A stretch of DNA of 41,099 nucleotides from Oligoflexia bacterium (GTDB lineage Bacteria > Bdellovibrionota > UBA1018). Both the position numbers and the translations under genes were made by a program. The notes beneath the pieces were generated by a model. It saw nothing but the letters and a program-made list of their open reading frames with translations. It was not told the origin of the DNA and did not search any database. Position 1 is the stretch's first letter, and every line of letters begins with the position of its first letter. Shown in pieces: positions 832 to 29,356 of this stretch. The stretch lies in NCBI GenBank assembly GCA_903881565.1, contig CAIRTR010000110.1:1-41099 (forward strand), written 5' to 3'.

Positions 832-2761
832 CAAACAATACGGCCCCAAAGTCCTTTTCGAAGATGCGGAAGCGCATCTCGGGCATCGCTCCCGCTTGGC
901 GCTCATTGGACCCAACGGTGCGGGCAAGAGCACGCTGATCAAGATTATTCTGGGCCTCGAAACCCCTGACTCGGGCCGAGTCACTCGGGCCTCCCATTTG
1001 ATGATTGGCTACCTGCCTCAAGAAGTGCCTAAGTTTTCCGGCAAAACGGTTTTAGAAGAAGTTCAAAGCATGGGCGGTCGTCGCGAGGAGCTCTTGGATC
1101 TGAGGCGCGAGCTTGAAGAGAAGCTTGCACAAAGCGCATCCAGTGAACATGAGGCTGATCTTGAGCGTTACGGCCGAGTTCTTGAGGAGCTTGAACACTT
1201 AGATGAATATCGCCTCGAATCCCGCGCTAAATCGATCCTAGGGGGAATGGGTTTTCGCCCCTCGGATTTTCACCGGCCCTTGACTGAGTTCAGCGGGGGA
1301 TGGCTCATGCGGGTCGCTCTATCCCGCATCTTGCTCATGGATCCCGATTTGTTGCTTTTGGATGAGCCCACCAACCATCTTGATTTGGAGTCTCTACTTT
1401 GGCTTGAGAATTTTCTGCGCGCGTTTCGTGGCGCGATTCTTGTCATTAGCCATGATACAGAATTTCTCAATCGCGTCGTTCATGAAGTACTGGAGATTGA
1501 CCAAAGGCGCCTGTGGAACTATCGCGGCAATATCGAAGCCTATGTCCTTCAAAAGCAAGAGCGCTTGACGATCTTGCGGGCCCAATACGCAGGCCAGCAG
1601 GCGAAAATCGCTGAAATTGAAGCTTTTGTGGAGCGCTTCGGAGCTAAAGCCACCAAGGCCCGCCAGGCACAAAGCAGGCTCAAGCAATTGGAGAAGATGG
1701 AGCTGATCGAGCTTCCGGATGACAACTCCAGTGTACGCTTTCGCTTTCCCCCCGCGCCTCACTCGGGCAAAGAAGTCATCACCATGAAGAGCGCGGGCAT
1801 GTCGTACGGCGAAAAAACGGTCCTTCGCGATTTGAGCTGGGTGATTTCGCGCGGAACTCGCACGGCGATTGTGGGGGTCAACGGCGCGGGCAAGACCACA
1901 CTTTTGAAACTTCTTTCGCAGAAGATGTCACCCACCGACGGCGAAGTGCGCTTGGGGCATCAAGTAAAGGTCGGATATTATGCCCAAATGCAGGCGGAGT
2001 CTCTGAACCCTGCTCTCACCATCTTGCAAGAACTTGAAGCCGTGGCTCCCGAATGGCCGATCTCGCGGGTGCGCGCCATTGCAGGTGCGTTTCTATTCAC
2101 AGGGGATGCAGTCGAAAAGCGATGCGGCGTGCTTTCGGGCGGCGAGAAGGCGCGCGTGGCTCTGGCGAAACTTTTGCTATCGCCTTCAAACTTCTTGATT
2201 CTTGATGAACCGACCAATCACTTGGATGTGGAATCTCGTGGCGTGCTTCTCGAAGCACTTCAGAACTACTCCGGGACGCTTTGCCTGGTTTCCCATGATC
2301 GAGCGTTTGTCTCTCCGCTAGTGGATGCGGTATTAGAGATTGTTCCGTCGCCCTCAGGATCTGAAGTGATTCATCTCCTGGGAGGTTACGAGGACTATCT
2401 CGCGCGCAAGATGAAAGAGGCTACGGGCGGTTTGTCGGACACCGGTGGAAGCGCTGCAGGGACAGGGATTGCGGTTGGCAGCGGCGGTGGCAATTCCTCC
2501 GAGGAAAAGAAGAAACCCACGGGACCTTCGAACAATCAAAAGCGCGCGTGGGAGAAGGAAAAAGAAAAAGTCGAGCAGGTGATTTCCCAGCTTGAAAAAG
2601 AGCAAGCGACGATTCAGACCCAAATGGCGGATAACTCGACTTACGACGACAAGGCAAAAACCCTGGCGCTGATTGCGCGGCAGCGTGAGGTTGAGTCAGC
2701 GCTTGGCGGGAAACTCGCCCGGTGGGAAGAGTTGTGCTTGGCGCTGGAGGGGGCAACATGA
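809..2761 (+). CDS. ABC-F family ATPase, YheS type
   Basis: Soluble twin-ABC protein of 650 residues without membrane segments. First cassette: Walker A GPNGAGKS (34-41), signature FSGGW (161-165), Walker B LLLLDEPTNHLD (181-192). Second cassette: Walker A GVNGAGKT (356-363), signature LSGGE (442-446), ILDEPTNHLD (464-473). The inter-domain arm around 278-300 (AKATKARQAQSRLKQLEKME) resembles E. coli YheS, and FSGGW also fits that group. A glycine/serine-rich linker (540-565) leads to a charged C-terminal coiled coil (about 575-645). ABC-F proteins bind the ribosomal E site and relieve stalled translation; the exact role here is not evident. The start lies inside mntA with no good Shine-Dalgarno, so translation may depend on ribosomes finishing mntA 22 bases later. 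Confidence 0.92.
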   Translation: MLHIHGLSKQYGPKVLFEDAEAHLGHRSRLALIGPNGAGKSTLIKIILGLETPDSGRVTRASHLMIGYLPQEVPKFSGKTVLEEVQSMGGRREELLDLRRELEEKLAQSASSEHEADLERYGRVLEELEHLDEYRLESRAKSILGGMGFRPSDFHRPLTEFSGGWLMRVALSRILLMDPDLLLLDEPTNHLDLESLLWLENFLRAFRGAILVISHDTEFLNRVVHEVLEIDQRRLWNYRGNIEAYVLQKQERLTILRAQYAGQQAKIAEIEAFVERFGAKATKARQAQSRLKQLEKMELIELPDDNSSVRFRFPPAPHSGKEVITMKSAGMSYGEKTVLRDLSWVISRGTRTAIVGVNGAGKTTLLKLLSQKMSPTDGEVRLGHQVKVGYYAQMQAESLNPALTILQELEAVAPEWPISRVRAIAGAFLFTGDAVEKRCGVLSGGEKARVALAKLLLSPSNFLILDEPTNHLDVESRGVLLEALQNYSGTLCLVSHDRAFVSPLVDAVLEIVPSPSGSEVIHLLGGYEDYLARKMKEATGGLSDTGGSAAGTGIAVGSGGGNSSEEKKKPTGPSNNQKRAWEKEKEKVEQVISQLEKEQATIQTQMADNSTYDDKAKTLALIARQREVESALGGKLARWEELCLALEGAT

Positions 2762-2788
2762 GGAGCGTATTTTAGTTGCTGGGTTTGC

Positions 2789-3142
2789 TTACTTCGTCGC
2801 AGGTGCAACCGGTGCCGCAGGCGCTGCTGCTGGAGCAGGAACTGCCGCAGGCGCGGCCGGCGCAGGCACACTTACGGGTGCTGCGGCAGGAACGCCTTCA
2901 AACAAGCTCTTCTTATTCTGACTTCCCATGATCGTGAGAGTCAGTGAAGTGATCATGAACAATGTCGCAGCGCCTTGGGTAAACTTCGTAAAGAAGTTAG
3001 CACCGCCGGAGCTTCCGAACACGGTCTGGCTCGAGCCGCTGAAAGACGCGCTGATCTCGGCACCCTTCCCCGATTGGAGGAGGACAACGAGAACGAGCAA
3101 AATACAAGTCACAACATGAACTACCGTTACGAGTGTGGTCAT
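2789..3142 (-). CDS. secG: Preprotein translocase subunit SecG
   Basis: SecG is the small accessory subunit of the SecYEG channel in the inner membrane. The 117-residue product has two hydrophobic segments (about 5-23 and 53-72) separated by the typical polar loop LLQSGKGAEISASF and a phenylalanine/glycine-rich stretch (GSSGGANFFTK), all standard SecG features. Residues 85-117 form an alanine/proline/valine-rich tail that is longer than in E. coli and is probably disordered on the cytosolic side. The gene starts 13 bases after the fusA stop, so fusA-secG are likely one transcript. It converges with the ABC-F gene; only 27 bases separate the two stops and no terminator hairpin is visible there. 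Confidence 0.95.
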   Translation of the reverse strand: MTTLVTVVHVVTCILLVLVVLLQSGKGAEISASFSGSSQTVFGSSGGANFFTKFTQGAATLFMITSLTLTIMGSQNKKSLFEGVPAAAPVSVPAPAAPAAVPAPAAAPAAPVAPATK

Positions 3143-3155
3143 TTAAATGAGCCCT

Positions 3156-5258
3156 TTATTTGCCTTCTTTGGCGCGTTTTTCTTGGTGTTTCTTAACCAT
3201 TTCGTCTTGGAGGTTGCGAGGGACAATTGAGTACTTCGCAAATTCCATCGTGAACTCGCCCTTACCTTGGGTCGCAGAACGGATGTCGGTTGAGTAACCG
3301 AACATGTCGTTTAACGGCACTTCAGCTTCAATGACGCAGAAACCTTCGTTGGTGGAGCTGTTCAAGATCACACCGCGGCGTTGATTGATCTGGCCGATCA
3401 CGGAGCCTTGGAACTCTTCGGGAGCCGAAGATTCAAGCTTCATAATAGGTTCCAAAATCGCAGCGCCCGCGTTTTCATAGGCTTCACGGAAGGCCATGAG
3501 AGAAGCTGTTTTGAAAGCTTGCTCGGAGGAGTCGACCGCATGGGATGCGCCGTCGTCAATCGTGACTCGCACGCCAACGATCGGGAACCCAATCAATCTG
3601 CCTTCTTTAACCGCTTCGACGAATCCCTTTTCGCAAGCAGAGATGAATTCACGAGGAATCGATCCCCCGACGACTTCATCCACGAACTCGAATTGCGCCA
3701 CAGCATCCGCTGGCAGAGGTTCGATGAAGCCGGCGACGCGTCCATACTGACCTGAACCGCCGGTTTGCTTCTTGTGCGTGTAGTTGAACGTCGAGCGTTT
3801 CGTGATGGTTTCTCGGAAAGCGACCTGGGGTTTTCCCACGACGACTTCGCAAGCGTACTCACGCTTAATACGTTCGCAATAGATCTCAAGGTGAAGCTCG
3901 CCCATCCCGCTGATGATCGTCTGTGCGGATTCTTCATCGCGATGCACGCGAAGGGTTGGATCTTCTTTTGTGAACTTGTTGAGCGCTTTAGAGAAGTTGG
4001 CAGTGCCAGCTTTGTCTTTAGGCGCAATCGCAAGCGAAATCACGGCATTCGGCACGAACATCGACGTCATGGTGACTTTATGGGTTCCATCCGTAAATGT
4101 ATCTCCCGAAGCGCAATCCACGCCGAAGAGAGCTACGATATCCCCGGCTTGTGCTTCAAGGATATCGTTCATCTCATCAGCATGCATGTGCACTAAGCGT
4201 GGGATCTTGACCTTGCGGTCATTGGTGCTGTTAAAAATGAAGTCACCCTTCTGGATGGTGCCTTGATAAATACGCATGTAAGTCAACTGTCCATAGCGGC
4301 CTTCATCCAATTTGAATGCGAGACCCACAAACGGAGCTTTTGCATCAGACTTGAGCACGATCTTGGCTTCGTTCGCGTTTTGGTCAAGAGCGATGTTCTC
4401 TTTTTCGCCGGGAGCAGGAAGATAATAGGTCACGGCATCCAAGACTACTTGAACGCCTTTGTTTTTGTAAGCAGAGCCCATGATCACAGGGGTGAACTCA
4501 AGACTCATGGTGGCTTTACGAATTGCGGCGCGGAGTTCGTCGATACTGACGTCTTGCCCTTCAATGTACTTGAGGCCGACGTTATCGTCGAATTCACCCA
4601 CAGCAGCGATTAAAGTTTCACGATACTTTTGAGCTTCGCCCAGGATATCAGCAGGGATCTCTTCAATGCGAATAGTTTCCCCGTTATCGCCATCAAAGTA
4701 CATCGCTTTCATGGTTACGAGGTCCACGATACCCTTGAACTGGTCTTCGGCGCCGATCGGATAGGTAATAAAATGGGCGTTATGCCCCAACTTTTCACGG
4801 AGCATCTTGAGCCCGCGGAAAGGGTTTGCGCCTGCGCGATCCATCTTGTTGATGAAGCACATGCGAGGCACTTTGTAGCGTTTCATCTGCCGATCGACCG
4901 TAATCGACTGGGATTGGACGCCTGCAACTGAGCAAAGAACGAGAATAGCGCCGTCAAGGACGCGAAGAGCGCGTTCCACTTCGATTGTGAAGTCAACGTG
5001 GCCTGGGGTGTCAATAAGGTTGACCTGATAGTCTTTCCACTCGCAATAAGTCGCAGCAGATTGAATGGTAATCCCTTTTTCTCGCTCCAAATCCATGAAG
5101 TCCATGGTGGCGCCAACGCCTGATTTACCCTTAACTTCTTCGATTTTATGGATTTTGTTCGTATAGAACAAGATACGCTCAGACAGCGTCGTTTTGCCAG
5201 AATCGATGTGGGCGGAAATACCGATGTTGCGAACCTTATCAATAGAAATGCGAGTCAT
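3156..5258 (-). CDS. fusA: Translation elongation factor G, spd/mitochondrial-like type
   Basis: A 700-residue translational GTPase that moves tRNA and mRNA through the ribosome after peptide bond formation. G1 is AHIDSGKT (16-23), G3 DTPGH (83-87), G4 NKMD (137-140). After the G domain come the usual EF-G domains II-V, ending with the [13 protein letters not shown] segment of domain V. G1 reads [17 protein letters not shown] rather than bacterial HIDAGKTT-TTERILFYT, and the following [20 protein letters not shown] and [13 protein letters not shown] are close to mitochondrial EF-G1. In bacteria this type (spdEFG1) is known from spirochaetes, planctomycetes and delta-proteobacteria. The start has a good GGAAGAGG ribosome site. 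It is divergent from orn, and 81 bases between them must hold both promoters. Confidence 0.97.
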
Positions 5259-18031: not shown

Positions 18032-18053
18032 CCTAGAGTTCTACCTAGAGTTC
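18032..18053. repeat. 12-bp tandem duplication spanning a stop codon
   Basis: The decamer CCTAGAGTTC occurs at 18032-18041 and again at 18044-18053 with TA between, a 12-base period. On the minus strand this reads Glu-Leu-stop-Val-Glu-Leu-stop at the end of the exported HNH-like protein, so the duplication either added or re-created its stop codon. It also fills the gap between two convergent genes. Confidence 0.85.
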
Positions 18054-18521
18054 CAAAAGGTGCTTGGTATACTCGGGGGCTTCGGGAGGATTAGCTTTCG
18101 CCTTTCTGATGATTTCGATGGCTTCGGCTTGCTTGAGTTTACCCTCGGCCATTTTTTGGCAAATAATCGGTTCCAAAGGGTCGGTATACTTGTAAACACT
18201 TTCGTGTTGCGGCCAGAGATTGTCGGATTCGTTACTGCCCCCCATACAAAGCGGAAAGTAGTGGTCAATCTTGAAGTGTTCTCGACCGGTTTGCATGATC
18301 TCGAAGCCTAGCTGACTTTCGTAGGTTTGGATGACCTGCTTTTTGCGGTCGGATTTAACATCACGGCTGCAGTAGGCGATCTGCTCGGGATATCGAATTT
18401 TATCGGCTTTCTTACAAAGAGATCCAGGAGTGAGGGCGCTGTCCGGCGACGTTGGAAACGTGTCGGCTGCGAACAGAGGGGTGCTTACGAACAAGGTGAG
18501 GGCCGCTAGTAGATTCCGCAT
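18045..18521 (-). CDS. Exported HNH-like nuclease
   Basis: A 158-residue protein with a clear signal peptide (MRNLLAALTLFVSTPLFAA, cut near residue 19). The core KIDHYFPLCMGGSNESDNLW (84-103) fits the DH...P...GG...N..L pattern of HNH/beta-beta-alpha-metal nucleases: D86-H87 as base and ligand, N101 for the loop, followed by PQH. Four cysteines (36, 51, 92, 121) could form two disulphides, in keeping with export. The substrate is probably DNA outside the cytoplasm, for scavenging or defence, but is not shown by the sequence. It converges with the UvrD gene and ends inside a 12-bp tandem duplication. Confidence 0.8.
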   Translation of the reverse strand: MRNLLAALTLFVSTPLFAADTFPTSPDSALTPGSLCKKADKIRYPEQIAYCSRDVKSDRKKQVIQTYESQLGFEIMQTGREHFKIDHYFPLCMGGSNESDNLWPQHESVYKYTDPLEPIICQKMAEGKLKQAEAIEIIRKAKANPPEAPEYTKHLLEL

Positions 18522-18832
18522 CGAGTCTCCCTATAGTCTGGCGATCAGTTTTTTGTTTCGCTTGAGGGTCTCTCTTTTAGGCGGCTTTTTGTCAATGATT
18601 CAGTGTCAAACGCCTTTACAGATGCTGTCTTCTTAACAGGCAGAGCAGGGGGGTGCCTGTTTCTTGGTCAAGGCTGATTTTTACTTAAATATCCGCTTTT
18701 ATTAAGGATTTATTCCGGGGTGTCTTTTTGAACCCATGTGGCACTTGGGTTGCACTACCCCCATGTGTAGTAATGAGTTTGGAAGCTCCAGACTCAAGAG
18801 AAGAGAAGCAGAAGAACTAAATAGGAGTAGTT
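18522..18832. other. Intergenic region between divergent exported-protein genes
   Basis: These 311 bases hold no gene I can support. They must contain the promoter of the minus-strand HNH-like gene on the left. The right part carries a sigma-54-type promoter (18739-18754) for the small exported protein, followed by a purine-rich leader of about 70 bases with a possible small hairpin (GTTTGGA/TCCAGAC, around 18777-18793). An A/T-rich stretch at 18675-18720 upstream of the sigma-54 site could be where an activator or bending protein binds; no repeated activator site was identified. Confidence 0.6.
18739..18754 (+). promoter_or_regulatory. Sigma-54 (RpoN) -24/-12 promoter
   Basis: TGGCAC, five bases, then TTGCA: this is the sigma-54 consensus, with the GG at 18740-18741 and the GC at 18752-18753 at the required ten-base gap. 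Transcription should start near 18765, giving a leader of about 68 bases before the small exported-protein gene at 18833. Sigma-54 promoters need an enhancer-binding activator, so this gene is probably switched by a specific signal. Confidence 0.75.
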
Positions 18833-19060
18833 ATGAAAAAGAGAATCATGTTGTTAATTGTCTTTGGCGTTTCGTTTGCGCCTCCCGTTTTTGCCTTTGA
18901 ACCGAGCGCGCCCATGGCGTCAGCTCGTCTTGGCGAAAACTCGGTGCTTGAAACCACACCCGCCGCAGTAAATTGTATCTTTGCTGAACGAGAGAAATCG
19001 GATCAGCAAGAGGCAGCTACGCAAAATGTCGTATCGATCTCGGCTGCAGCCGCGCACTAG
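18833..19060 (+). CDS. Small exported protein of unknown function
   Basis: A 75-residue product with a textbook signal peptide (MKKRIMLLIVFGVSFAPPVFA, cut after residue 21), leaving a mature peptide of about 54 residues. The mature part is alanine- and glutamate-rich, has a single cysteine (C48 in AAVNCIF) and ends in an alanine run (SISAAAAH); no known domain was recognised. Support for a real gene is strong for its size: a good ribosome site (TAGGAG, 18823-18828), a signal peptide, and a sigma-54 promoter placed correctly upstream. The lone cysteine could allow a dimer or attachment to a partner. It converges with the small membrane-protein gene at 19072. Confidence 0.8.
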   Translation: MKKRIMLLIVFGVSFAPPVFAFEPSAPMASARLGENSVLETTPAAVNCIFAEREKSDQQEAATQNVVSISAAAAH

Positions 19061-19071
19061 GTCGCGGGATT

Positions 19072-19401
19072 TCAGCGCGAATGCTGAATCAGCGATTGTA
19101 GTTTTCGGCGCTCCGAAGGTGCGACTGTGTCGCCGGATTCGTTGGCGGACTCGCTTGCGGACGATCGTCGATTACCACTTCGGGCATCCCCAAGAAGATG
19201 ACTTGCCCAGCTTCGTACCGGACTAAGAATCGGCGGGAGCCATTGGCTAGTGGCAGTAACATGTTCGGCCTGAGCAAGTCCGGTTCGGACTTGATCGGAT
19301 ACGGTTTTACCGTCCCAACGAACGATGTGACTGAGCACGAGCACGACTGCCGAAAAAAAGACGAGTTTGAATCCAAAGCCAATCAGCCTAAGCATGTCCA
19401 C
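19072..19401 (-). CDS. Small membrane-anchored protein of unknown function
   Basis: A 109-residue protein with one N-terminal transmembrane segment (about 9-28: GFGFKLVFFSAVVLVLSHIV), then a polar, serine/arginine-rich tail without recognisable domain. The frame is preferred over an overlapping minus-strand frame at 19089-19382 because its ATG follows an AAGGAG ribosome site at ideal spacing and because it starts within the last 14 bases of the CheC-like gene, as expected for an operon partner. It is the last gene of the cheY-cheC-like cluster. The function is unknown; membrane anchoring suggests a partner or output for that small signalling unit. Confidence 0.7.
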   Translation of the reverse strand: MDMLRLIGFGFKLVFFSAVVLVLSHIVRWDGKTVSDQVRTGLAQAEHVTATSQWLPPILSPVRSWASHLLGDARSGNRRSSASESANESGDTVAPSERRKLQSLIQHSR

Positions 19402-19840
19402 GATCTCCTTGCGAGGTCAGGATGATCCATGCATGGACCGTGACTTCAATATCGCCGCATTTATGAATGTACTGGTGATAGGGAAACTCTTGGCCTACTT
19501 TTACGAGTGACTGAAAAACTGTTTTAGAAATTTTCTGCGGTGGTGAAACCGCTAAATCCATTTCCTTGCGCGCACTCAGCGTGGTCACGAGCTGACTGGC
19601 GATGATGTTGCCCATTTCGGCATAGACCGAAAAATCCAGATTCTGATCGAATTGAACGAGGAGCACCCCTTGGAAATCCCCTTGAAGGGAGTAGCCAATG
19701 GTCTTCATCTCTTCATTGGGCGCCGCAGACTTTTGGGCGGCAGGATCGGGGAGTCTGTTGACTTCTCCTAAGTGATAAAAAGGGAAACTTGTCGGAAGCG
19801 CCAGTTCCATTGTTTCATAAATTGAATCGAATTTTTTCAT
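19388..19840 (-). CDS. CheC/CheX-like phosphatase-motif protein
   Basis: A 150-residue protein containing S71-x3-E75-x2-N78-x22-P101 (SVYAEMGN ... P), which fits the (D/S)-x3-E-x2-N-x22-P signature of the CheC/CheX/FliY phosphatases that remove phosphate from CheY. E75 and N78 would be the catalytic pair. A hydrophobic strand before it (GVLLVQFD) and the helix after it (NIIASQLVTTLSA) fit the CheC fold. It lies 32 bases downstream of a cheY-like gene, strongly suggesting an enzyme-substrate pair. Only one copy of the motif is present, as in CheX. The start has an AAAGGA ribosome site. Whether it acts in motility or another CheY-controlled process is open; no flagellar gene is in view. Confidence 0.78.
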   Translation of the reverse strand: MKKFDSIYETMELALPTSFPFYHLGEVNRLPDPAAQKSAAPNEEMKTIGYSLQGDFQGVLLVQFDQNLDFSVYAEMGNIIASQLVTTLSARKEMDLAVSPPQKISKTVFQSLVKVGQEFPYHQYIHKCGDIEVTVHAWIILTSQGDRGHA

Positions 19841-19872: not shown

Positions 19873-20289
19873 CTAGCCGGTGCGTGCATCGCGATTGGCC
19901 GCCCCCCGTGCAATGGATTCGCCCGCGTCCATAAAGGCCCGTTCGATTGTCTTGAGCACATCAGCGGCACTAAAAGGTTTCGTGAGGTAGTCGCGCGCGC
20001 CGACATTGATGGCATCCATGATGAGATTTTCTTGTCCCATCGCGGAGATGATCACAACCCGCGCCTTTTTATCCATTTTTACAATGCGTCGGGTGGCATC
20101 GATCCCGCTCATATTGGGCATCACGATATCCATCGTGACGATGTCGGGGCGTAGTTTCATGTAGAGCTTGATGGCTTCGGCACCATCCGCCGCCTCGCCA
20201 ACCACTTGATAATGGGCAGCAGTGAGAATTTCAGAAAGCGTTTTCCGAACAAACGCCACGTCATCAACAATAAGCACGGTTTTGGCCAT
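19873..20289 (-). CDS. CheY-like single-domain response regulator
   Basis: A stand-alone receiver of 138 residues. All active-site residues are present: D9-D10 in IVDD, phospho-acceptor D54 in VTMDIVMP, S82 in ISAMG and K104 in YLTKPF. No output domain follows; the C-terminus adds only about 15 mixed residues. It should be phosphorylated by a histidine kinase encoded elsewhere. Immediately downstream is a CheC-like phosphatase, then a small membrane protein. Upstream, the same strand carries two CNNM genes and lon with only 51 bases between, so it may be expressed from the lon promoter as well as its own. Ribosome site GGAAGGCAAAGG precedes the ATG. Confidence 0.93.
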   Translation of the reverse strand: MAKTVLIVDDVAFVRKTLSEILTAAHYQVVGEAADGAEAIKLYMKLRPDIVTMDIVMPNMSGIDATRRIVKMDKKARVVIISAMGQENLIMDAINVGARDYLTKPFSAADVLKTIERAFMDAGESIARGAANRDARTG

Positions 20290-26012: not shown

Positions 26013-27461
26013 ATGATCATGCAAAAAAATAACAAGCCCTTAGCCGTCATGATTTTGGCAGCAGGACAGGGCAAAAGAATGCACTCGGAGCTCCCCAAGG
26101 TTTTACATGAAATTGCGGGGCAATCTCTCTTGTTTCACGTTTTAAAAGCGCTCGAAGCGGTCAGAGATCGAGTCTCTGTTGGAATCGTGGTCGGACATGG
26201 AAAAGAGGCGGTCGAAGCGGCTGTTGAAAAAAGCGGAATCTCTGCGTCATTTTCCGGCGGGATCTCCTTTATCCCTCAGAGCGAGCAAAAGGGGACAGGC
26301 CATGCCGCACGCTGTGCGATGGATTCTCCATGGGGTAAGAAGATCAGGGCACAGGGAGCTGCGGTCCTGGTGTTGCCGGGGGATCTGCCCTTGATTCCTG
26401 CCTCCTTAATAGGCGCGCTTGCTGAACCGTTTAAGGCAAAGACGGTGCTTCGTCTTTTGACCTGCGATTTTGAAAACCCATTTGGCTATGGCCGCGTTTT
26501 GCGTAAGGGAAAAAATGTTCTTCGAATTGTTGAAGAGCGGGATGCGACTCCCACCGAAAAAAGAATTCGTGAAGTGGCGGCCTCTATTTACGCCTTTGAC
26601 GCCAAGTTTTTGGCGGAGTCGTTGCCGAAGCTTACTACCAGCAATGCCCAGGGCGAATACTATCTGACGGATCTTGTTGCTCGGGCCTCAAAAATAAAAT
26701 CAGGCACTGAAATTCTAAAATGGTCCTCTGCTGAGGATCTCCGGGGTGTGAATAACCGGTATGAGCTTTCCGAGGCGGGCCGGATCTTCAATGCTCGACT
26801 GATCAGAAAATGGGCTGAGGCCGGCGTGAGTTTCCGAGATCTTGCTTCGACCTGGCTTGATTCGAGCGTCGAATTAGAAGCGGACGTCACTGTGGGCCCT
26901 GGAGTGGTGTTGCAGGGTAAGACGATTGTTCGAAAAGGGGCGACGCTCGGACCCCATGTTGTGTTAAAAGATGTTGAAGTGGGTGAAGGCGCAAACATTA
27001 AGACGGGATCCGTTGCCGAAGCGTCAAGCATCGGTCGTGGGGTCCACCTTGGGCCTTATGCCCATCTTCGTCCCGACTCGGTCGTCGGAGATGGGTCGAA
27101 GATTGGAAACTTCGTAGAACTCAAGAAAACGAAGATTGGGAACAAGACGAACGTGTCCCATCTTTCATACCTCGGGGATGCCGAGGTTGGGAATCACGTC
27201 AATATCGGGTGTGGCTTTATCACCTGTAATTTTGATGGTCGCGTCATTGAGGGGCAGCGAAAACATCGCACCCTTATAGAGGATGATGTTTTCATGGGGA
27301 GTGATTGTCAGACGGTCGCCCCGGTTCGAATTGGCAAGGGGGCTTATGTAGCCTCAGGCTCAACGATCACGCAGGATGTGGAGCCTGAGGCGCTGGCCAT
27401 TGCTCGCTCTAGACAAGTGAATAAGCTGGGATATGCTCGGAAATTGAAACCCGAAACTTAA
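26013..27461 (+). CDS. glmU: Bifunctional GlmU (GlcN-1-P acetyltransferase / GlcNAc-1-P uridyltransferase)
   Basis: A 482-residue enzyme making UDP-GlcNAc for peptidoglycan and LPS. The N-terminal pyrophosphorylase half has LAAGQGKRM...LPKVLH (15-32), VLPGDLPLI and EGEYYLTDL-like NAQGEYYLTDLV. From about 265 the left-handed beta-helix acetyltransferase begins: hexapeptide-style repeats (VTVGPGVVLQGKTIV, GPHVVLKDVEVGEGANI, HLGPYAHLRPDSVVG), then KKTKIGNKTNVSHLSYLGDA and NIGCGFITCNFDG. Either ATG 26013 or 26019 could start it; both follow an odd ribosome-site arrangement. glmS follows after 29 bases, placing consecutive pathway enzymes in one operon. Confidence 0.96.
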   Translation: MIMQKNNKPLAVMILAAGQGKRMHSELPKVLHEIAGQSLLFHVLKALEAVRDRVSVGIVVGHGKEAVEAAVEKSGISASFSGGISFIPQSEQKGTGHAARCAMDSPWGKKIRAQGAAVLVLPGDLPLIPASLIGALAEPFKAKTVLRLLTCDFENPFGYGRVLRKGKNVLRIVEERDATPTEKRIREVAASIYAFDAKFLAESLPKLTTSNAQGEYYLTDLVARASKIKSGTEILKWSSAEDLRGVNNRYELSEAGRIFNARLIRKWAEAGVSFRDLASTWLDSSVELEADVTVGPGVVLQGKTIVRKGATLGPHVVLKDVEVGEGANIKTGSVAEASSIGRGVHLGPYAHLRPDSVVGDGSKIGNFVELKKTKIGNKTNVSHLSYLGDAEVGNHVNIGCGFITCNFDGRVIEGQRKHRTLIEDDVFMGSDCQTVAPVRIGKGAYVASGSTITQDVEPEALAIARSRQVNKLGYARKLKPET

Positions 27462-27490
27462 AGCCTGGAAATAAAGAAGGAATAAATCTC

Positions 27491-29356
27491 ATGTGTGGAA
27501 TCGTCGGTTACGTCGGACATCGCCCTGCAGTCGAAATTTTATTAAAAGGCCTTAAACGTCTTGAGTACCGCGGATATGATTCGGCGGGCGTTGCTTTTTT
27601 CATGAATGGGAAAATTCAACTCAAGAAGTCCGAAGGGAAACTTGAGAACGTCGAAAAACTTCTTAACGCGAGTGAGCCTCCTTATAGTAGCGCAACCTGC
27701 GGGATCGGGCACACGCGTTGGGCTACTCACGGCAAACCCACGACCCAAAATGCCCATCCCCATCGCACGGGACACATTGTCTTGGTTCACAATGGGATTA
27801 TCGAAAACTATCAGGACCTTAAAAAAGAAATCATCACTTGGGGCAAAACGCCTCAATCAGAAACTGACAGTGAACTTTTTGGTTTCTTAGTCGAGCGAGA
27901 AGTTCAAGGTGGCGCTTCGTTTGTAGACGCGGTTCGTAAGAGTTTCACGCGGCTTGAAGGCGGCTGCAGCGTCGTCGTGATGTCTGAAAATGATCCCGGC
28001 GTCATCGTCGGCGTGAGAAACGGTTCACCGCTGGTTGCAGCCATTGATCCTCAGGGTGGGGCCGTACTGGCGAGTGATGCGCAGCCGCTTTTGGATATTA
28101 CTCAAGAAGTGTTTTTTCTCGAGCATGGAGACGTCGTAGTCGGGACCGAAAAGGGCATCGAGTTCTTTGATCTCAAAACGGGCGCTAAAGTTCAGCGCGC
28201 GATGACCAAAATCGATTGGTCAGTCGAGAAACTCGATAAACAAGGGTTTGCTCATTATATGCTCAAAGAAATTCATGAGCAGCCCACGGCACTGGTCGAT
28301 ACCCTCAACAGTATTCTGGATCGTGCGAAGACGGATCCGTTTCCGTTGGCACTTCAGCCTGCCGTGGGAATTTTGGACAAAGCCGAGCAGATCATGCTCG
28401 TGGCGTGTGGCACTTCTTGGCATGCGGCATTGCTTGGAAAATTTTGGTTAGAAAACTGGGCGCGGATTCCGACCCACGTCGAGCTTGCCAGTGAGTTTCG
28501 CTATCGTAATCCGGTCATCATGCCCGGAACGGTTGTTATTGGAGTGACTCAATCGGGTGAAACCGCAGATACCTTGGCCGTCTTGAAGCAGATGCGCGAA
28601 CTGGGAGTTCCAACCTTGGGCGTGACCAACGTTCGAAACAGTACGGTGTCCCGCGAGGCGGACGCGGTCCTTTATACCTCCGCAGGTCCGGAAATCGGTG
28701 TCGCTGCCACAAAAACGTTCTCTACCCAGATGCTCGTCATGCTGCTTGCGGCGGGTTATCTTGCTATAAAACGCTCGGCGTCGTCGAACAAAGAAGTGAC
28801 CAAGCTTTTTCATGATCTTGTAAAGCTCCCCATGCTGCTCTCGCAGAATCTTGAAGAGGGTGGAGCGTGGATGCAAGTCATTCGCAAGGCGGCTCAAAAT
28901 CTTTACAAGTCAAAGGGCTTCTTTTTTATCGGGCGAGGCTACTCGTTTCCGCTTGCGCTTGAAGGCGCCCTGAAACTCAAGGAAATCGCCTATGTCCATG
29001 CTGAAGGCTACGCCGCCGGTGAGTTGAAGCATGGGCCCATTGCCATGATCGATAACGAAATGGCGGTCATTGTTATCGCCCCTTGTGATCGTTGGCGCGA
29101 TAAGACGATTTCGAACCTCGAAGAAGTTAAAGCCCGCGGCGCGATCATTGTGGGGGTGGGTGAAGAGGGGGATGAGAAATTCAGATCCCTCTGCAATCAT
29201 TGGATTCCGCTGCCGCATGCCTCCGATCTTCACGAATCGTTGCTGCCCTTCTTGGTGGCACCTATTGTGCAGTTGCTCAGTTATGAGCTCGCGGTTCTCA
29301 AAGGGACTGATGTGGACAAACCTAGAAACCTAGCCAAGAGTGTGACGGTAGAGTGA
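27491..29356 (+). CDS. glmS: Glucosamine-6-phosphate synthase (isomerizing)
   Basis: A 621-residue enzyme that converts fructose-6-phosphate and glutamine to glucosamine-6-phosphate, the entry step of amino-sugar synthesis. It begins MCGIVGYVG, where the cysteine after the removed methionine is the glutaminase nucleophile; KRLEYRGYDSAG, HTRWATHGKP and HNGIIENYQDL are the other N-terminal amidotransferase blocks. Two SIS sugar-isomerase domains follow (ACGTSWHAALLGKFW, VTQSGETADTLAVL, FFIGRGYSFPLALEGALKL), and the protein ends PRNLAKSVTVE as in the family. An AAGAAGGA ribosome site precedes the ATG. The 29-base gap from glmU is too short for a glmS ribozyme. The stop overlaps the pcrA start. 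Confidence 0.97.
   Translation: MCGIVGYVGHRPAVEILLKGLKRLEYRGYDSAGVAFFMNGKIQLKKSEGKLENVEKLLNASEPPYSSATCGIGHTRWATHGKPTTQNAHPHRTGHIVLVHNGIIENYQDLKKEIITWGKTPQSETDSELFGFLVEREVQGGASFVDAVRKSFTRLEGGCSVVVMSENDPGVIVGVRNGSPLVAAIDPQGGAVLASDAQPLLDITQEVFFLEHGDVVVGTEKGIEFFDLKTGAKVQRAMTKIDWSVEKLDKQGFAHYMLKEIHEQPTALVDTLNSILDRAKTDPFPLALQPAVGILDKAEQIMLVACGTSWHAALLGKFWLENWARIPTHVELASEFRYRNPVIMPGTVVIGVTQSGETADTLAVLKQMRELGVPTLGVTNVRNSTVSREADAVLYTSAGPEIGVAATKTFSTQMLVMLLAAGYLAIKRSASSNKEVTKLFHDLVKLPMLLSQNLEEGGAWMQVIRKAAQNLYKSKGFFFIGRGYSFPLALEGALKLKEIAYVHAEGYAAGELKHGPIAMIDNEMAVIVIAPCDRWRDKTISNLEEVKARGAIIVGVGEEGDEKFRSLCNHWIPLPHASDLHESLLPFLVAPIVQLLSYELAVLKGTDVDKPRNLAKSVTVE

Follow-up and report, generated by a model that had tools for sequence, protein, structure and literature searches.

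The 41,099-nucleotide stretch of DNA analysed here (the window) carries a sigma-54 promoter ahead of a very short open reading frame, and the question that it raises is whether this is a genuine regulated gene and, if so, what its product is for. The -24/-12 promoter, TGGCACTTGGGTTGCA, lies at 18739..18754 (+) and is the sole exact copy of TGGCAC-N5-TTGC on either strand of the window. When one mismatch is allowed, three matches are found against 2.5 expected, so that the promoter motif alone does not exceed chance, and this count is what favours regarding the locus as a spurious ORF of small size downstream of a fortuitous promoter-like sequence. What raises the locus above chance is the conservation of the ORF together with its promoter, a codon-position bias and a conserved dyad further upstream; promoter, dyad, frame and gene neighbourhood are all conserved, and the idea of a chance motif, refuted by this comparison, retains a negligible probability. 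Transcription is predicted, from the position of the -12 element, to start at approximately 18765, which would give a leader of 68 nt, and a Shine-Dalgarno sequence, TAGGAG, occupies 18822..18827 (+), 5 nt before the ATG at 18833. The promoter, ribosome site, leader and 75-codon frame described in a sequence-only reading of the window are thus present as claimed.

The ORF, at 18833..19060 (+), encodes a protein of 75 aa, denoted class A, for which no Pfam domain was found at E values up to 1 and no family in NCBIfam or PHROG. Residues 1-21 (18833..18895, +) constitute a predicted signal peptide with cleavage after VFA, recognised heuristically and by eye; signal peptides were called throughout by a simple rule of our own rather than by SignalP. 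The MKKR start and the hydrophobic core of the signal peptide are conserved among homologues, the mature tail is variable, and Cys48 (18974..18976, +) is the sole invariant residue in an alignment of 20 sequences, with a single cysteine in the mature part of all 25 homologues. Moreover, differences among ten genomes over codons 2-21 number 374, 148 and 621 at codon positions 1, 2 and 3, respectively, a pattern which argues that the frame is under coding selection. The cysteine lies well inside the mature part, away from the cleavage site, and identity as a lipoprotein was rejected on this basis. A structure model of the 75-mer, made with a 5-row alignment, has a mean pLDDT of 55.5, with only the signal helix formed and values of about 50 elsewhere; the mature part is probably disordered according to this model, which rests on five sequences and fits such a reading without proving it. 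A profile search of the PDB with class A gave two weak matches, both over the signal-peptide end. Judged by these sequence features export is likely, and of the earlier proposal of a "regulated secreted peptide" it is export from the cytoplasm that stands, whereas secretion proper does not follow, since periplasm, surface and medium are indistinguishable by sequence; the further idea of a surface or signalling role tied to one life stage is conjecture.

Homologues were collected in three rounds. A single-sequence search of 58 genomes gave five matches, a 5-row profile run against the 35 genomes of the same family gave 13, two of which (L016 and L017) were later dropped, and a 20-row profile, applied to all 58 class genomes, yielded 29, of which 25 were kept after inspection of promoters and neighbours. 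A single-sequence scan of genome contigs found no relative, and the 5-row profile detected four records among genome contigs, all MAGs, which carry the labels Bdellovibrionales, Bacteriovoracaceae and Oligoflexia and suggest that the window belongs to an uncultivated lineage of Bdellovibrionota. Class A is accordingly assigned to 25 of the 58 genomes, the window's own included, with 22 of 35 inside the family, where G016 and G034 are the weakest members, and three of 23 outside it (G035, G036 and G039); it was not accepted in the other 33, including 13 family genomes. TGGYAY-N5-TTGCW (W = A or T) precedes the ATG by 69-157 nt in 25/25 homologues, with GG at -24 and GC at -12 in exact spacing, a figure that is partly by construction because sequences were accepted only if they had the promoter. 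Among family genomes, 20 reach E < 1e-12 with the 20-row profile and all of them carry it, several of those 20 rows having built the profile. The weak candidates in G020 (L016), G027 (L017), G031 (L289), G042 (L293) and G044 (L291) were dropped because they lacked the promoter, had other neighbours or were another protein; in G020 a different sequence was accepted beside the dropped one. Two further sequences stand outside the 25, namely a profile match without a strict promoter in G055 (L286) and, in G005, a second class A-like gene in tandem that has no strict sigma-54 site (L295, G005:C128:58485-58673). The sequence-only reading had staked its case on finding the same promoter before a short exported ORF in related genomes and on the conservation of both, and 25 of 58 genomes keep both.

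Upstream of the promoter lies an element that is absent from that reading. The sequence TGTCAAACGCCTTTACA (TGTC-N9-TACA) at 18604..18620 (+), a predicted activator-binding site, was identified from the best N9 dyad in the 25 homologous promoters. It belongs to a 17-bp dyad with the consensus TGTCTAA-N3-TTAGACA, read from position counts and composite matches, that precedes the -24 element by 97-135 nt. Scored against TGTC-N9-GACA, at least seven of eight positions match in 20/25 homologues and at least six in 24/25, and for the sole homologue below six the upstream sequence is only 112 nt long. Among the 23 full-length upstream regions, 19 score seven or eight with N9 and between zero and two do so with spacings of 5-8 or 10-13; the mean score of these 23 is 7.04 against 4.93 +/- 0.14 in shuffles, 15 SD above. 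Dyad bases that were not scored are nearly invariant (base 6 is A in 24/24 and base 12 is T in 23/24), and the refined pattern has a single match on both strands of the window, at 18604-18620. We predict that the dyad serves as an enhancer of the usual kind for an activator of sigma-54. The window's genome carries an rpoN gene and 16 strong matches to sigma-54 activator domains and, with the promoter and the conserved dyad, these lend good support to the earlier statement that the gene would be silent until a dedicated activator fires.

The dyad and promoter were also searched for as a composite. Dyad-N75-105-promoter has 33 matches in 24 of the 35 family genomes and, class-wide, 50 rows in 37 of the 58 genomes, at least one pair of which, in G015, represents a single sequence that recurs at two contig ends; the backward control gave 0 in both searches. 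With its spacing of 118 the window falls outside N75-105 and is not among these matches. The genes behind the composite comprise more class A, small exported proteins, lipoproteins and two that, by eye, resemble vWA lipoproteins. In five genomes (L226, L231, L243, L249 and L254) the composite also precedes a small protein that lacks a signal peptide, most copies of which end ..LHSRLRFMLKELEELV.

Several known regulators were compared as possible counterparts. At PilR-controlled pilin genes, TGTC repeats precede the sigma-54 promoter and the product is exported. Class A is similar in having a TGTC element upstream of a sigma-54 promoter and an exported product but, unlike the PilR-controlled pilins, a prepilin cleavage motif was not found in it. 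QseF binds TGTC-N10-GACA, and the class A promoters resemble the QseF/GlrR site of glmY in that a TGTC...GACA dyad precedes the sigma-54 promoter; they differ in having N9 rather than N10, a protein-gene target, and one scored site against the three described there at P. mirabilis glmY (PMC8745638). Membership of the QseF/GlrR regulon was rejected, since N10 gives 0/23 at seven of eight and N9 gives 19/23. Autoregulation of an activator through the dyad was likewise set aside, as the dyad is absent from the 24 loci L055-L078, which extend about 1.5 kb to each side of the activator and rpoN matches. For 10 of the 16 activators a name was sought in NCBIfam, and no equivalog scored above cut-off.

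The genes downstream of class A bear on two further readings. A small membrane-protein gene of no known family, with the C-terminal sequence ...KLQSLIQHSR, faces class A tail to tail at 19072..19401 (-), followed by a CheX/CheC-like gene with a weak family score (E about 0.02) at 19388..19840 (-) and a stand-alone CheY-like receiver protein at 19873..20289 (-; PF00072, 3.6e-30). In many relatives the tail-to-tail membrane protein ends ..ERQKLRALIRELN, and in most loci CheX-like, CheY-like and CNNM/CBS genes come next, as seen by eye in the ORF lists. In 22 of the 24 loci open to this test the class A stop faces the end of the membrane-protein gene at a distance between -4 and about 120 bp, the G008 locus, at a contig edge, not being among the 24, and an intrinsic-terminator-like hairpin occurs within 200 nt after class A in only 6/23 loci. 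Both observations would suit a transcript that is itself the product, either a sigma-54-driven RNA like GlmY or an antisense RNA that silences the membrane protein-cheX-cheY operon, and a precedent exists in the small RNA driven by QseF/GlrR from a TGTC-N10-GACA site (PMC8745638). Such an RNA is quite unlikely, given the coding selection on the frame with its Shine-Dalgarno sequence, signal peptide and invariant cysteine, the lack of Rfam matches in the window, and two loci that depart from the arrangement, G032, whose two genes are about 630 bp apart, and G016, in which the neighbour was not found. On the other side of the promoter, at 18045-18521 (-), there is a divergent ORF of 158 aa with a signal-peptide-like start and a weak HNH_5 score (E 0.023). 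GlmU-like and GlmS-like genes, recognised by domain matches, lie about 7 kb downstream at 26013-29356 (+); in E. coli QseF/GlmY acts on glmS, and the proximity is recorded here as a curiosity.

If the protein is the product, the signalling genes that adjoin it in most testable loci invite comparison with Bd0108 of Bdellovibrio bacteriovorus. Bd0108 is an exported, intrinsically disordered protein of 101 aa that governs the choice between predatory and axenic growth (PMC4267844, PMC3818213). Class A, from a related lineage, is likewise small and exported, and disordered in its model and, by analogy, Bd0108 is its nearest functional analogue, a likeness by description. Class A could on this comparison be a periplasmic regulator, a disordered exported protein that reports the state of the envelope or pilus and flips a lifestyle switch, perhaps via the membrane protein and the CheX/CheY-like pair. 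We consider this unlikely though worth entertaining: Bd0108 has a CXXC pair and class A a single cysteine, Bd0108 lies next to Bd0109 and Tad (type IVb) pilus genes, and class A is convergent with its signalling neighbours rather than cotranscribed with them. More speculatively, the conserved leader and the variable mature tail around one cysteine might point to precursors of a secreted, lineage-specific signal that is released in bursts upon firing of the enhancer-bound activator and read back via the membrane protein/CheX/CheY module. This is very unlikely in our estimate; if true, it would constitute a sigma-54-gated peptide signalling circuit in a phylum of predatory bacteria.

A different line of evidence came from the other sigma-54 sites in the family. 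TGGCAY-N5-TTGCA occurs at 117 sites in the 35 genomes, against 51 for the backward control and 81 for N6, and the raw counts were rejected as evidence, being weak and only about twice the backward control. All 117 site regions were examined, and 57 precede, at 35-140 nt, an ATG ORF with a Shine-Dalgarno sequence and a signal peptide, as do 46 of the 69 sites with a G before TTGCA. The corresponding controls gave 0/30 for decoys with the wrong N6 spacing (30 of the 81 being sampled), 1/117 for reversed sites and 5/219 for shifted positions. Besides class A, the families behind these sites are class B, with AGQK/PGQK-type repeats, class C, with 190-220 residues and conserved cysteines, and a smaller family, class D. 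Class B proteins are exported and of low complexity, with AGQK, PGQK or SKGEQK repeats rich in Gln and Lys that could be cross-linked (L090, G000:C40:1-257, minus strand; also L079, L083, L085, L112, L120, L124, L127, L169, L170, L188, L190 and L194). In the L092 locus of the window's genome a histidine kinase is followed by an activator, a sigma-54 site and a class C gene (exported protein, activator and histidine kinase at L092:167-838, 1176-2564 and 2605-4326, minus strand). In other genomes an activator stands beside most class C sites, with 66-78% identity over the aligned parts, and this conserved activator is a candidate for class C. In classes B, C and D the class A dyad was not detected above shuffles, so their activator need not be common to class A. 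The association of sigma-54 promoters with exported proteins suggests, from sequence comparison, a program given over to remodelling of the cell's exterior.

There is published precedent for such a program. A general connection between sigma-54 and the exterior of bacteria has been described (PMC3162934), as has one with operons for the cell exterior in Desulfovibrio (PMC4641369). Most PEP-CTERM genes stand alone as units of one gene, in which a 17-nt motif that ends in TTTACA is accompanied by a spacer and a sigma-54 motif (PMC1569441), and one PEP-CTERM gene is RpoN-dependent (PMC9850573); this precedent (PMC3162934, PMC9850573, PMC1569441) was counted in favour of a cell-exterior reading of class A. 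The likeness to PrsR/sigma-54 PEP-CTERM genes extends to single-gene units, a large upstream region, the 17-nt motif, the -24/-12 site and an exported product of low similarity (PMC1569441, PMC9850573). Class A might belong with the PEP-CTERM genes that PrsK/PrsR control, within a sorting system linked to exopolysaccharide: the order of activator motif, spacer, sigma-54 motif and start codon is alike (PMC1569441), the window's dyad also ends TTTACA, and the window's genome has one exosortase. An exosortase-like gene (PF09721; L265, G000:C155:1386-2162, and L266) was seen only in that genome and in G024 among the 35. That class A belongs to this system is highly improbable and largely refuted, because it lacks the C-terminal PEP, helix and basic tail, with Pfam empty even at E up to 1, none of the 16 activator matches passes the PrsR cut-off (best 436 against 502.6 bits), and exosortase occurs in 2/35 family genomes against 22/35 for class A, which gives no coupling. 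The class A dyad is, moreover, TGTCTAA-N3-TTAGACA, and the spacer between activator site and promoter is about 80-118 nt against a mean of 62.8 nt given for PEP-CTERM genes (PMC1569441). By analogy, class A works like the PrsR-controlled PEP-CTERM genes without being one.

We therefore favour, as the probable explanation, a single-gene, activator-gated unit for a small exported protein that is part of a wider sigma-54 "cell exterior" program, its regulatory architecture being firm at the level of sequence. A sigma-54 activator (bEBP) would bind the dyad at 18604-18620 and loop to RNA polymerase-sigma54 held at 18739-18754, firing a short mRNA from which the good ribosome site would allow synthesis of the 75-residue precursor. 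The latter would leave the cytoplasm by the general secretory pathway and be cleaved after roughly 21 residues, yielding a product of about 54 residues, probably disordered and with one cysteine, which may serve as a small structural element or adaptor within the envelope or immediately beyond it. Class A would then be one output of a broader sigma-54 program that switches on exported proteins.

The class A and class C families have no match in Pfam or NCBIfam above cut-off, and a literature search, with subscription papers mostly outside its reach, returned no sigma-54 regulon paper on Bdellovibrionota among the matches listed. For these uncultivated relatives within the Bdellovibrionota the locus would provide a defined and testable regulon, consisting of one enhancer sequence, one promoter type and several exported families, and conservation of the enhancer throughout the class opens it to experiments in relatives that can be cultivated. 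The identity of the activator would reveal the signal for rebuilding the cell exterior, a question which is tied to attachment and predation.
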